Source of the DNA: Pseudomonadota bacterium
GTDB taxonomy: Bacteria; Pseudomonadota; Alphaproteobacteria; Micavibrionales; CSBR16-224
Reading direction: 5' to 3'
Assembly (NCBI GenBank): GCA_013285465.1
Contig: CP053449.1
Location: 2,256,735-2,320,734, forward strand
Length of the DNA: 64,000 nt
Part shown: positions 40,624-62,483 of the stretch, piece after piece
Layout: every line of letters starts with the position of its first letter
Numbering within the stretch: the first letter of the stretch is position 1
The notes under the pieces: model-generated
What the model was told of the DNA's origin: nothing
What the model saw: the letters and a program-made list of their open reading frames with translations, nothing else
Database searches by the model: none
Made by a program: the position numbers and the translations under genes

Positions 40624-41616
40624 TCAGCCTCCTATTGATGCCAGATGCGGCGTTGCACCGCTATCATTCTGCTGCAGGAAATGTGAACTGCGCTTAAACC
40701 GCATCAGCTCCATCATTTTATCCTGCAGCGCTTCCATTTGGTCGTCACTTTGCAAAAGCTCACGGAGCGAATACCCTCCCGTGCCGAATAAACAAAGATG
40801 CAGCGCCCCCTTTGCCGAGACACGCAACCGGTTACATGTCTTGCAGAAATCTTTTGAATAAGGAGCAATAATACCGATTTTACCGCGGCTGCCGGAATGC
40901 GTAAATTCAACAGCCGGTCCCGCGCCCTCCGCCCGTTCTATTTCCTGCCAGCCGCGCGCCGACAGCCTGTCCCTGACCGTCTGTCCCGATAAATGATGCG
41001 TACCGTAATATTCCTGATTATCCAATGTCCGCATCAATTCGATAAAGCGCAGCGAAAGCGGCTTATCATGCACAAAATCCAGAAAATCATCCAGTTCATC
41101 GTCATTCAGACCTTTCAGCAAAACCGTATTGATTTTCACCGCCTCGAATCCCGCATCAAAGGCCGCGTCGATCCCTTCGAGTATCTCCTCCAGACGGTCA
41201 TGGCCTGTGATTTTGTGAAATTTATCCGCTTTTAAAGAATCTATGCTGATATTGATCGCCCTGAGACCGGCATTATAAAATTCCTCCGCCCGCTCCGGCA
41301 GGCGGTAGCCGTTTGTTGTAAAGGCCAGTCTTTCGATCCCCGGCGTTGCGGCAACGGTTTCGACGATTTCGGTAAAGTCACTGCGTACCGTCGGCTCCCC
41401 CCCTGTCAGGCGGATTTTCCATGTCCCCATTCCGGCAAAGGCGCGTGCAATCCGTCCGATTTCTTCGACGGATAAAAACGGCTCACAACCGCTTTTCTTA
41501 TATCCGTCGGGCAGGCAATAGGAACAGCGGAAATTACACACATCCGTCACGGACAGGCGCAGATAGGGAAAGCGCCTGCCGAAACCATCCGTCAGTACTG
41601 TTTGGTCGTCCTTCAT
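40624..41616 (-). CDS. moaA: GTP 3',8-cyclase MoaA (radical SAM)
   Basis: 330 residues from ATG 41616, chosen because AAAGGAG lies five bases before it. The N-terminal 4Fe-4S radical SAM motif is CNFRCSYC, followed by the RLTGGEPTVR SAM-binding strand. The C-terminal second cluster is FCKTCNRLRVSAKGALHLC (CxxC...C), and the chain ends in the conserved Gly-Gly (ASIGG). First enzyme of molybdopterin synthesis and first gene of a seven-gene operon. Its leader carries a riboswitch and an FNR box; see those entries. Confidence 0.95.
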   Translation of the reverse strand: MKDDQTVLTDGFGRRFPYLRLSVTDVCNFRCSYCLPDGYKKSGCEPFLSVEEIGRIARAFAGMGTWKIRLTGGEPTVRSDFTEIVETVAATPGIERLAFTTNGYRLPERAEEFYNAGLRAINISIDSLKADKFHKITGHDRLEEILEGIDAAFDAGFEAVKINTVLLKGLNDDELDDFLDFVHDKPLSLRFIELMRTLDNQEYYGTHHLSGQTVRDRLSARGWQEIERAEGAGPAVEFTHSGSRGKIGIIAPYSKDFCKTCNRLRVSAKGALHLCLFGTGGYSLRELLQSDDQMEALQDKMMELMRFKRSSHFLQQNDSGATPHLASIGG

Positions 41617-41620
41617 CTTT

Positions 41621-41722
41621 ACTCCTTTCCAAACACGGGAGGCCGCAGCGTTTCCACATACGACCCCGGCCAGACAACCATATTTTCCGGTATTGAAAAA
41701 CTTAGGCGGCAAGGCTCGGAGT
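41621..41722 (-). promoter_or_regulatory. molybdenum cofactor (Moco) riboswitch in the moaA leader
   Basis: On the minus strand P1 pairs ACUCC (41722-41718) with GGAGU (41625-41621), which is the moaA Shine-Dalgarno sequence, so folding would block translation. Between them are AGCCUUGC, then CCUAAG and UAUGG flanking a 6-bp stem (UUUUUC/GGAAAA), which is the 11-nt GAAA tetraloop receptor. A GGCCG/CGGCC helix follows with an inner GUG-GAAA-CGC tetraloop hairpin, then UCCCGU and UUGGAAAGG. The last block matches the end of the E. coli moaA leader as I recall it. A further hairpin (UUGCCA/UGGCAA, 41755-41722) lies just 5'. Confidence 0.82.
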
Positions 41723-41798
41723 TGCCAGATTTCCTATTTGGTGGAAACATGGCAATATCGTTATGATTCGACTATGGAGGAAATATCACCTTTGTCAA

Positions 41799-41812
41799 TT
41801 GATCCAAATCAA
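41799..41812. promoter_or_regulatory. perfect FNR/DNR box before moaA
   Basis: TTGAT-CCAA-ATCAA matches the FNR consensus in both half-sites. Its centre lies 41.5 bp before a predicted moaA start near 41764, with CATAGT (41776-41771) as a -10 candidate, the usual spacing for FNR activation. It lies in a 334-bp gap whose other half leads to the Crp/Fnr gene at 41951; no matching -10 is seen in that direction. Confidence 0.8.
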
Positions 41813-54581: not shown

Positions 54582-54658
54582 CTCATCTCTATAATGTTTC
54601 CTATTAAATAAAATAATAATGCTATTTATTAACAAATTAATTGTGGAAGCTTCGACAG

Positions 54659-55441
54659 ATGCCGCTAACCAAAAGTGATATATGGCCCACCGGCCTCGCG
54701 CGGAATAACGGCGTCCCGAAAATTTTTTATAATCTTAGTGAAGAGACGTTTCAAAAGCTGCTCAACCACTCCATTTTGCAAAACTACCCGCAAGGCCGGC
54801 TGCTGGTGCAGCAGGGTGACCGCCCGCAATATCTTTATTTTATTGCTGACGGAACCGTCAAAACGCTCCGCCAGGACGAGAACGGACGCGAGGTGACTTT
54901 GCGCCTGCTGCGCCCCGGTGAAACCTGTATGGAAGCCGTCATTTTTATGGATGGGGACTCACCGATCGCGGTGCAGGTCGCCAGCGATGCAAAACTCCTG
55001 TTAATACCGGTTGAAATTATCCGCAAAACCGTTCTGAGTGATGCGCAATTTGCGAATAATCTTCTGAGTATCGTGTCCTATCACTATAAGAACGCCATGC
55101 ACCAGATTGATGCCATGCATATCAAAAACCCTGCGCAAAGACTGGGTTATTATTTTCTACTGAAACATCTGGAAAACGGACATGACAATCTGGAATTCAC
55201 ATTGCCGTTTCAAAAATCTGCGATTGCCAATTATCTGGGCATGACCCCCGAGACTTTTTCACGCACATTGAAAAAGCTGAAACAGCAAGGTATCAGCTTT
55301 GAAGACAACACCATCAAAATGCGCGATGCCTATGTCTTGTGCAATTATTGTGACAGCGATGCGGAAAGTCTTTGCCACAACAGCGAGAAAGATGATTGTT
55401 TTTCCTGTCCGATCGGGAAAAATCAGGGAAATAAAGGATAA
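54659..55441 (+). CDS. Crp/Fnr-family regulator with C-terminal five-cysteine cluster
   Basis: About 260 residues from ATG 54659, with GGAAG upstream; TTG 54641 is the alternative start. The sensor domain has GDRPQYLYFIADGTVKTLRQ and LLRPGETCMEAVIF. The recognition helix is MTPETFSRTLKKL, with the E--SR pattern that reads TTGAT. There is no N-terminal FNR-type cluster. Instead, beyond the winged helix, the chain ends with LCNYCDSDAESLCHNSE and CFSCPIG: Cys228, 231, 239, 247 and 250. This could bind a metal or iron-sulfur cluster. Divergent from narK1, so probably its regulator and autoregulated. Confidence 0.85.
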   Translation: MPLTKSDIWPTGLARNNGVPKIFYNLSEETFQKLLNHSILQNYPQGRLLVQQGDRPQYLYFIADGTVKTLRQDENGREVTLRLLRPGETCMEAVIFMDGDSPIAVQVASDAKLLLIPVEIIRKTVLSDAQFANNLLSIVSYHYKNAMHQIDAMHIKNPAQRLGYYFLLKHLENGHDNLEFTLPFQKSAIANYLGMTPETFSRTLKKLKQQGISFEDNTIKMRDAYVLCNYCDSDAESLCHNSEKDDCFSCPIGKNQGNKG

Positions 55442-60500: not shown

Positions 60501-60842
60501 ATGAGTACAAAAACAGGCAGCAAATTTGCAAAAAAACTTCTGACAGCATTTCCCGCCGATATTGAAAACAGTAAAACAGTCAAAAATATGGTAAAAACAC
60601 TTTCTGCAGTTTTCCTTGCCGCCACCGTAGGAGCTTACACAGCTTTGGATACATCTGTGGAGCAGCAGGTTGAACCGCAACAAACAACCCATTCAATCAA
60701 CCATAAGACACTTACCGCCAGCTTGGGGATTGCAGGTATGTCAACCGTTGCGCTGGAACTGCTGTTACTCAATTTTGTCAGCCCGAACAGCACAACACGC
60801 CGGATGGTTCAAAAACAGGTGACGCCGCACATCAAGCACTGA
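60501..60842 (+). CDS. small two-helix membrane protein (113 aa)
   Basis: Begins with a strong site AAGGAGAAAAG before the ATG. The basic N-terminus has two hydrophobic helices at about 31-48 (TLSAVFLAATVGAYTALD) and 74-92 (LGIAGMSTVALELLLLNF), joined by a polar Gln/His-rich loop; both ends are basic. No family recognised. It lies inside the anaerobic island with a dyad before it and an FNR-type promoter after it. Confidence 0.7.
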   Translation: MSTKTGSKFAKKLLTAFPADIENSKTVKNMVKTLSAVFLAATVGAYTALDTSVEQQVEPQQTTHSINHKTLTASLGIAGMSTVALELLLLNFVSPNSTTRRMVQKQVTPHIKH

Positions 60843-60860: not shown

Positions 60861-60903
60861 TTGATCTGGGTCAAGATCAATCCATATGAAGCTGTGATAT
60901 AAT
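60861..60903 (+). promoter_or_regulatory. class II FNR-type promoter of a candidate small RNA
   Basis: TTGAT-CTGG-GTCAA (60861-60874) with perfect -10 TATAAT (60898-60903). The expected start, A60910, places the box centre at about -42. Confidence 0.75.
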
Positions 60904-60909
60904 TTGATT

Positions 60910-61024
60910 ATAGAGTGGTTTCTTGAAAAACAGGCTCTAAATATCGTGTATAACCTACGTCTCCTTTAATGACGACATAGTTTTCAGCCCCCGTATCTGT
61001 GCTTCGGGGGCTGAAGCTTGTTTT
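60910..61024 (+). ncRNA. candidate FNR-activated small regulatory RNA
   Basis: About 115 nt with no meaningful reading frame; the longest starts end after a few codons. It begins with a stem-loop (UAGAG/CUCUA with inner GUUU/AAAC, 60911-60939). A single-stranded stretch follows with UCUCCUUU (60960-60967), the exact complement of the Shine-Dalgarno form AAAGGAGA, and it ends in a strong terminator hairpin. Promoter, anti-SD segment and terminator together are the layout of trans-acting sRNAs such as E. coli FnrS. Not a member of any family I recognise. Confidence 0.6.
60983..61024 (+). terminator. intrinsic terminator of the candidate sRNA
   Basis: A perfect 11-bp stem TTCAGCCCCCG/CGGGGGCTGAA (60983-60993 with 61005-61015), an 11-base loop and GCTTGTTTT. 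It may also act on the convergent porin gene, which ends at 61042, but the minus strand has no T tract there. Confidence 0.78.
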
Positions 61025-61041: not shown

Positions 61042-62283
61042 TTAAAATTTTGTCCCGATTGTCAGCCAGATTTTTTGCGTATCCGCAAATAATCCTTTGG
61101 CATGATAGTCCGAAAATTTAAGGCCGAGTGAATATTTCTTCAGACCCATGCCTTCAGGAAGGTCGAAATCACGGGTGATTTGCGCATCCCATTCGCTGCC
61201 GTAAAAACCGCTGCCGCTTTCCGGACCGAAGCGGTGGAGATGGAAATCAATTTTCGTTCCCGCAAAAGCTTTGCCTTTTTCCCCGATTTTATAAGAGATT
61301 TTTCCGTAAAAATCCTCCAGCCCCATAACCGGCGTTGCCAGAAACTTATCGGCCCAACCGTTATGGGCATGCAGCGTCGCCAAAGGCGTTTGCAATGCGT
61401 TCACACCGTTTCCGCCAAGCGACTCGAAACCGGCCTTCACCGAAAGCCCGCCCTGTTTTACACCCAGCGCGGCATGGTAATAATCCTCGCGGTAATTTGC
61501 CGGATTGCGACCGTAATCACTCTGTGTTGCCGCCTCCGCCTCGTAAAATAATGTGAAATCGTGCTTTTGTAACGGAATATCCCCCGTCAACCTCAACCCG
61601 TATGTCTTTGATGCCAGACCCGGCAGCCTGTCCATATCAATCAGATAGCCGTAAGCCGTCGCTTTCAGCCATGCGGCATGGTTATAGGAGATTTGTCCCA
61701 GATGCGTTTTGCTTCCGCTCTCCCCCAAAGGATTATGACGGCTGAAAATACGGTGAACGCGGTCAATATAGCTGTAAAAAACAGTCGTTTTCGGCAAAGC
61801 ACTGTTTTGCAGGACAACGGAATCGAAAACCTGATCATTCTGACGCCAGCCGACCGCCCCGACAAAGCGCTGGTTATCAAGATTAATGCGTTGACGCCCG
61901 ATCTTCGCGGAACTGTCCGGCACGCCTTTATAAGACAGCCACAGCTCATTTAAGTTAAAAATCGTCGGATCGGCGATAACCGGATAGCTGCCTTTTCCGT
62001 TCACCATGTCGTTATGACGGCGCGTGCCGATATTCTCGACCCATTCAAGCTCCGCACTGCCTTGAAAATTCTGATATTCCGCCGTCGTATAACCCAGTTT
62101 TGTGCGTATTGTCGACGCACCGGAATCTTTGACAAAGGCATCATCATCCACATGTTCGTAACGGTAGCGGATATCCCCGTATAATTTTCCGTCTTTCAGA
62201 ATCTCTGCGGGAGATGCCTGAGCTGATAACGGGAAAGTCAAACCGGCCAGTACCATTGCAATGGTTGTTATATTTTTTTTCAC
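61042..62283 (-). CDS. outer-membrane beta-barrel porin, alginate-export family
   Basis: 413 residues from GTG 62283, chosen because GGAGGG lies 8-9 bases before it and it begins directly at a signal peptide (KKNITTIAMVLAGLTFPLSAQA); an ATG-like start further upstream adds 10 residues. The barrel shows alternating strands: GDIRYRYEHVDDDAF, TIRTKLGYTTAEY, LNELWLSYKG, AKIGRQRINLDNQRFVGAVGWRQND. These are marks of the alginate_exp domain. The C-terminus ends in Phe (LTIGTKF). Such porins appear in many denitrifiers; the solute is unknown. Confidence 0.85.
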   Translation of the reverse strand: MKKNITTIAMVLAGLTFPLSAQASPAEILKDGKLYGDIRYRYEHVDDDAFVKDSGASTIRTKLGYTTAEYQNFQGSAELEWVENIGTRRHNDMVNGKGSYPVIADPTIFNLNELWLSYKGVPDSSAKIGRQRINLDNQRFVGAVGWRQNDQVFDSVVLQNSALPKTTVFYSYIDRVHRIFSRHNPLGESGSKTHLGQISYNHAAWLKATAYGYLIDMDRLPGLASKTYGLRLTGDIPLQKHDFTLFYEAEAATQSDYGRNPANYREDYYHAALGVKQGGLSVKAGFESLGGNGVNALQTPLATLHAHNGWADKFLATPVMGLEDFYGKISYKIGEKGKAFAGTKIDFHLHRFGPESGSGFYGSEWDAQITRDFDLPEGMGLKKYSLGLKFSDYHAKGLFADTQKIWLTIGTKF

Positions 62284-62357
62284 AGTGCAGTCCCTCCATG
62301 TTTTCTGCGTCATAACAGAAGTTTCAGCACATCCTGCCCTTTCAGACGATTCTGTCC

Positions 62358-62371
62358 TTGACCTTGATCAA
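62358..62371. promoter_or_regulatory. FNR-type box between the porin and nrdD
   Basis: TTGAC-CTTG-ATCAA, one base off consensus. Its centre lies at about -40 to a predicted nrdD start near 62404, with TATAGG (62392-62397) as -10. It is 75 bp from the porin start, where no good -10 is seen. Confidence 0.65.
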
Positions 62372-62483
62372 GCCCGCAACACGCTATCTTGTATAGGCTG
62401 GATGCAGAAGACACCATATCTGGTAGATCATTCATAACACTCATAAAAACAACACAAAGATTCGACGTATAGGAGAAACAGCC

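Follow-up and report, generated by a model that had tools for sequence, protein, structure and literature searches.

FnrS of E. coli and Salmonella is a short RNA gene under the direct control of an FNR-type box, and its product represses functions that are not needed without oxygen (PMC8139620). Other proteobacterial small RNAs induced by oxygen limitation are PaiI and PhrS of Pseudomonas aeruginosa, AniS of Neisseria and PcrZ of Rhodobacter sphaeroides, the last of which comes from an alphaproteobacterium and requires PrrA and FnrL (PMC8139620). Small RNAs that carry an anti-Shine-Dalgarno motif have also been described: in the Rhizobiales families SmelA075 and SmelA099 (PMC3927594) and in NmsRA/B of Neisseria (PMC5362039) the motif lies in hairpin loops or open stretches, and in NmsRA/B it mediates mRNA repression.

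The candidate element described here occupies positions 60861-61024, plus strand, of the window, by which we mean the whole 64,000-nucleotide stretch that was analysed, and sits amid nitrate-respiration genes of an uncultured alphaproteobacterium. It consists, in order, of an FNR-type box, 23 nt, an extended -10 element (TGnTATAAT) and about 115 nt of noncoding sequence with a 5' hairpin, the segment UCUCCUUU and an 11-bp terminator hairpin (Table 1). The sequence-only reading had proposed these parts, and direct reading of the sequence located every one of them where it had been placed. With FnrS the element shares the short RNA gene and the FNR-type box, but it differs in having FtrB/DNR-like regulators and no Rfam match. 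For PcrZ, PaiI, PhrS and AniS, Rfam showed no sequence family shared with it. The SmelA075/SmelA099 and NmsRA/B RNAs carry three or four CCUCCUCCC loops, or two anti-Shine-Dalgarno motifs, whereas the element has a single UCCUU loop, and their promoter control differs from its own. Rfam covariance models run at gathering and at relaxed thresholds returned no relevant family at the locus. The RNA probably works like FnrS, PcrZ or AniS, as an anaerobically induced small RNA.

Table 1. Features of the candidate element and other FNR-type boxes of the window
Feature	Position	Strand	Remarks
FNR/DNR-type palindrome TTGATCTGGGTCAA, putative activator site, centre about -42 (class II)	60861..60874	+	14/14 in sister; 27 vs 2 genome-wide
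Extended -10 element TGATATAAT	60895..60903	+	sister: TGGTATAAT at equal 23-nt distance, spacer only 11/20 identical
Putative small RNA, ~115 nt	60910..61024	+	92/100 aligned positions identical in sister; no ORF >9 codons
5' hairpin	60911..60939	+	predicted fold; 26/28 identical in sister
Small hairpin CGUC-UCCUUUAAU-GACG presenting anti-Shine-Dalgarno-like loop	60958..60974	+	pair probability ~0.87 in window
Conserved core UCUCCUU	60960..60966	+	kept in sister
Intrinsic-terminator hairpin, 11 bp, 11-nt loop	60983..61015	+	stem arms 60983-60993/61005-61015; 60983-61014 32/32 identical in sister, loop included
U-rich tail GCUUGUUUU (DNA: GCTTGTTTT)	61016..61024	+	weaker in sister: AAUUUAUCU
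FNR-type box	41799		between moa cluster and a Crp/Fnr gene
FNR-type box	51497		before narG
FNR-type box	54568		before second Crp/Fnr gene
FNR-type box	56699		before ubiT (ubiTUV)
FNR-type box	62358		porin/nrdD

The architecture of the promoter is that of a class II site. TATAAT (60898-60903) starts exactly 23 nt past the box and is preceded by TGA, which makes it an extended -10. With this spacing the centre of the box lies some 42 nt upstream of a start at 60909-60910, so that a TTGATnnnnATCAA-type palindrome at about -41.5 from the inferred start is combined with a proper -10; one of its half-sites is GTCAA rather than ATCAA. The box is a member of a real regulon. The pattern TTGAYNNNNRTCAA occurs at 27 sites in the 2.67-Mb genome vs 2 for the reversed control, and the six boxes of the window adjoin anaerobic genes. 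Among these six and 17 others examined, a perfect TATAAT at a distance of 20-25 nt accompanies only the box of the element. No other class II site examined in the genome is as well formed as its promoter, and the RNA should therefore be easily detected in metatranscriptomes. The box at 41799 lies upstream of moaA, which is also directly preceded by a molybdenum cofactor (Moco) riboswitch (41608-41733, minus strand, 65.7 bits), giving two control layers on cofactor synthesis.

The protein that would act at these boxes is probably not FNR in the strict sense. The genome encodes three Crp-type HTH proteins, two of them within the window, whose closest named models or structures are FtrB and DNR, with scores below curated cut-offs. 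None of the three is a canonical FNR/FnrL with an N-terminal cysteine cluster, and two further cNMP-domain proteins in the genome gave no match to the HTH model. The description of the RNA as FNR-activated is thus too narrow; nitrogen oxides, and not oxygen, may provide the activating signal. Two of the regulators (54641-55441 and G000:C1:527530-528285, L040:1063-1818), both devoid of the N-terminal FNR cysteines, have cysteine-rich C-termini, e.g. CNYCDSDAESLCHNSEKDDCFSC, which may form a metal or Fe-S site.

A copy with 82% identity was found in a single further genome, the metagenome-assembled Alphaproteobacteria bacterium M3014 (contig SBHI01000055.1). This sister contig is collinear with window positions 28842-64000 at 82-85% identity and has a box at 6/6 corresponding places. 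The box, the TATAAT and the terminator, on whose conservation in relatives the sequence-only reading had staked its proposal, are all kept there. Change is unevenly spread over the element: 14/14 positions are identical in the box, 11/20 in the spacer, 8/9 in the -10 region, 26/28 in the 5' hairpin, 14/16 in the linker, 32/32 in the terminator hairpin, 5/10 in the tail, and 10/18 and 10/17 in the flanks. Within the RNA, conservation is lowest in the region of the anti-Shine-Dalgarno hairpin (13/16 with 4 gaps). Over the whole RNA, 92/100 aligned positions are identical, as against 53-62% (about 0.59) at four-fold sites of the porin, nrdD, decarboxylase, ubiU and ubiV genes, and the RNA is thus under strong purifying selection (binomial P of about 5e-13 at 0.60, with sites taken as independent). 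Since intergenic regions elsewhere in the collinear stretch also reach 0.67-0.85 identity overall, some of them 0.77-0.85, when the RNA itself scores 0.88 in that alignment, the conservation argument rests on the pattern and not on the overall figure.

The neighbouring gene supplies a further part of that pattern. Adjoining the element in the window is a gene of 113 codons (60501-60842) without a Pfam or NCBIfam match, and in the sister a glyoxalase-like gene on the opposite strand sits there instead, so that the element stands alone and is no appendage of the upstream gene. Exactly the predicted parts have persisted against changes in the spacer, the flanks and the upstream gene, and with four-fold sites of neighbouring genes only about 59% alike; it is therefore likely that this is a true small-RNA gene driven by a class II promoter of the FNR type. 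At the level of sequence, the element has what trans-acting small RNAs generally have, namely a promoter and a terminator of its own, no ORF and conservation independent of the flanking gene.

The distribution of the element is very narrow. At meaningful scores it was undetected in genomes G002 to G006, in 142 genomes of the order and among 385 genomes sampled from the class, and a plasmid collection yielded no copy. One of these genomes (G002) belongs to the same genus and is 88% complete; it lacks ubiU and the porin as well as the element. Filter-off searches around ubiU in G003, G006 and G014 and inspection of the regions beside porin homologues in G003 and G006 revealed no copy. Weak covariance matches within the order were set aside as chance, as they cover just the promoter or pieces of the RNA, and the match in G006 lies inside a coaE-like gene. 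The locus would add an anaerobic-type small-RNA gene outside every Rfam family, in a poorly studied group of uncultured alphaproteobacteria with nitrate reductase and oxygen-independent ubiquinone genes, and would be another case of independently evolved small RNAs attached to the Crp/Fnr regulon.

The ends of the RNA were inferred from the -10 element (5') and from the U-rich tail (3'), and on both strands the transcribed part is free of ORFs longer than 9 codons. Fold z-scores are -2.8 and -3.1, mostly due to the terminator hairpin. In the predicted folds of the window the loop UCCUUUAAU is unpaired at P>0.95, an exposed CU-rich stretch complementary to Shine-Dalgarno sequences. The proposal of an unpaired TCTCCTTT (60960-60967) is borne out for this loop but not for U60960 and C60961, for which pairing within a 4-bp hairpin is predicted (P about 0.9). 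The sister keeps UCUCCUU but not the full UCUCCUUU. AUGU and ACAU flank the same core there by eye, its predicted fold has no clear small hairpin, and its CCUU is predicted to be mostly unpaired. From the sequence, two other roles were discarded: the opposite strand of the segment has no start codon at a distance fitting a Shine-Dalgarno sequence of a minus-strand gene, and the RNA has no GGA motif of the kind a CsrA sponge would require.

These features suggest a course of events that we put forward conditionally. When oxygen is low or nitrogen oxides are present, an activator of the Crp/Fnr family (FNR-, DNR- or FtrB-like) would bind the box at about -42, and the stand-alone gene would then be transcribed on the plus strand from about 60910 to 61024. 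The RNA would fold into the 5' hairpin, the small hairpin exposing the CU-rich loop, and the terminator hairpin. It would most likely act in trans, the exposed segment pairing with ribosome-binding sites of chosen mRNAs and blocking their translation, possibly with Hfq, whose gene is present in the genome. Taken as a whole, an anaerobic-type small-RNA gene acting in trans through Shine-Dalgarno pairing is the reading towards which we lean.

The individual targets that had been proposed, messages with a complementary site that would be repressed, found no support. In the sister, the moaD site AAAGGAGA becomes AAAGGAAA and is broken, and the 60501 gene is absent from the locus. The moaA site lies at the end of the Moco riboswitch. 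The complementary site before the DUF2939 gene, a gene whose domain match is below the Pfam cut-off, does exist and falls outside the stretch covered by the sister contig. Matches of at least 7 nt to the segment occur at 12/133 crudely called gene starts (9%), simply because AAGGAG is the general ribosome-binding consensus. Extended 13-nt complementarity gave 120 and 88 matches in the two genomes vs 286 and 218 for the reversed control, duplex energies were no better than with shuffled loops, and conserved complementary sites rose above background neither in 27 neighbouring orthologue pairs nor in one genome-wide pattern. The strongest predicted duplex in the window is at narI (start 45328, minus strand), with GGUCGUCAU just before the Shine-Dalgarno sequence; narI was rejected as a target, as its duplex drops from -23.4 kcal/mol to -15.4 in the sister.

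A different use of the same loop is conceivable but improbable: a lineage-specific small RNA under a DNR/FtrB-type, nitrogen-oxide-sensing regulator would mimic the anti-Shine-Dalgarno tail of 16S rRNA and, as the cell turns to nitrate respiration, damp the translation of many strongly Shine-Dalgarno-led mRNAs instead of a few chosen ones. Somewhat less unlikely is that the anaerobic small RNA is real but works through another part, a seed or protein-binding site formed by the 5' hairpin or by the unchanging hairpin and loop of the terminator. The distribution of change between the two genomes speaks for this, with these two hairpins nearly or wholly unchanged and the anti-Shine-Dalgarno hairpin region the most altered. 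Yet the UCUCCUU core itself was kept, and known small RNAs often use CU-rich anti-Shine-Dalgarno segments as functional parts (PMC3927594, PMC5362039).

The convergent porin gene (61042-62313, minus strand, stop at 61042) offers two explanations of another kind. Transcription of the element might act in cis, as antisense, by colliding with the porin gene or reading through the terminator into it, and so limit porin expression. Both genomes retain the convergent arrangement, the sister has a weak U tail, and the minus strand has no listed terminator-like site inside the element; with no evident terminator of the porin's own before it, the two transcripts may overlap. Mere collision, however, would not need conservation inside the RNA, and a hairpin of 11-14 bp in this position favours termination ahead of the porin gene, so that we hold a cis role to be doubtful. 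Least probable of all is that there is no RNA gene, only an FNR-type box and a -10 that happen to stand before a bidirectional terminator of the porin gene. Only two genomes carry the element, and short intergenic regions are as a rule fairly conserved in this stretch, but box and -10 keep a fixed distance across a drifted spacer, conservation extends over the stretch from -10 to hairpin, and after the hairpin the minus strand reads AAAAC, with no T run.

The porin itself is of the Alginate-export/Opr-like kind and has the box at 62358 upstream. Its nearest relatives outside the genus, in the genome collection, are mostly from Nitrosomonas and gammaproteobacterial MAGs (43-46% identity), hinting at acquisition by transfer. 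The divergent intergenic region between porin and nrdD (62314-62483) is highly conserved with the sister well past its FNR-type box, possibly reflecting an extended leader or a coding start farther upstream.
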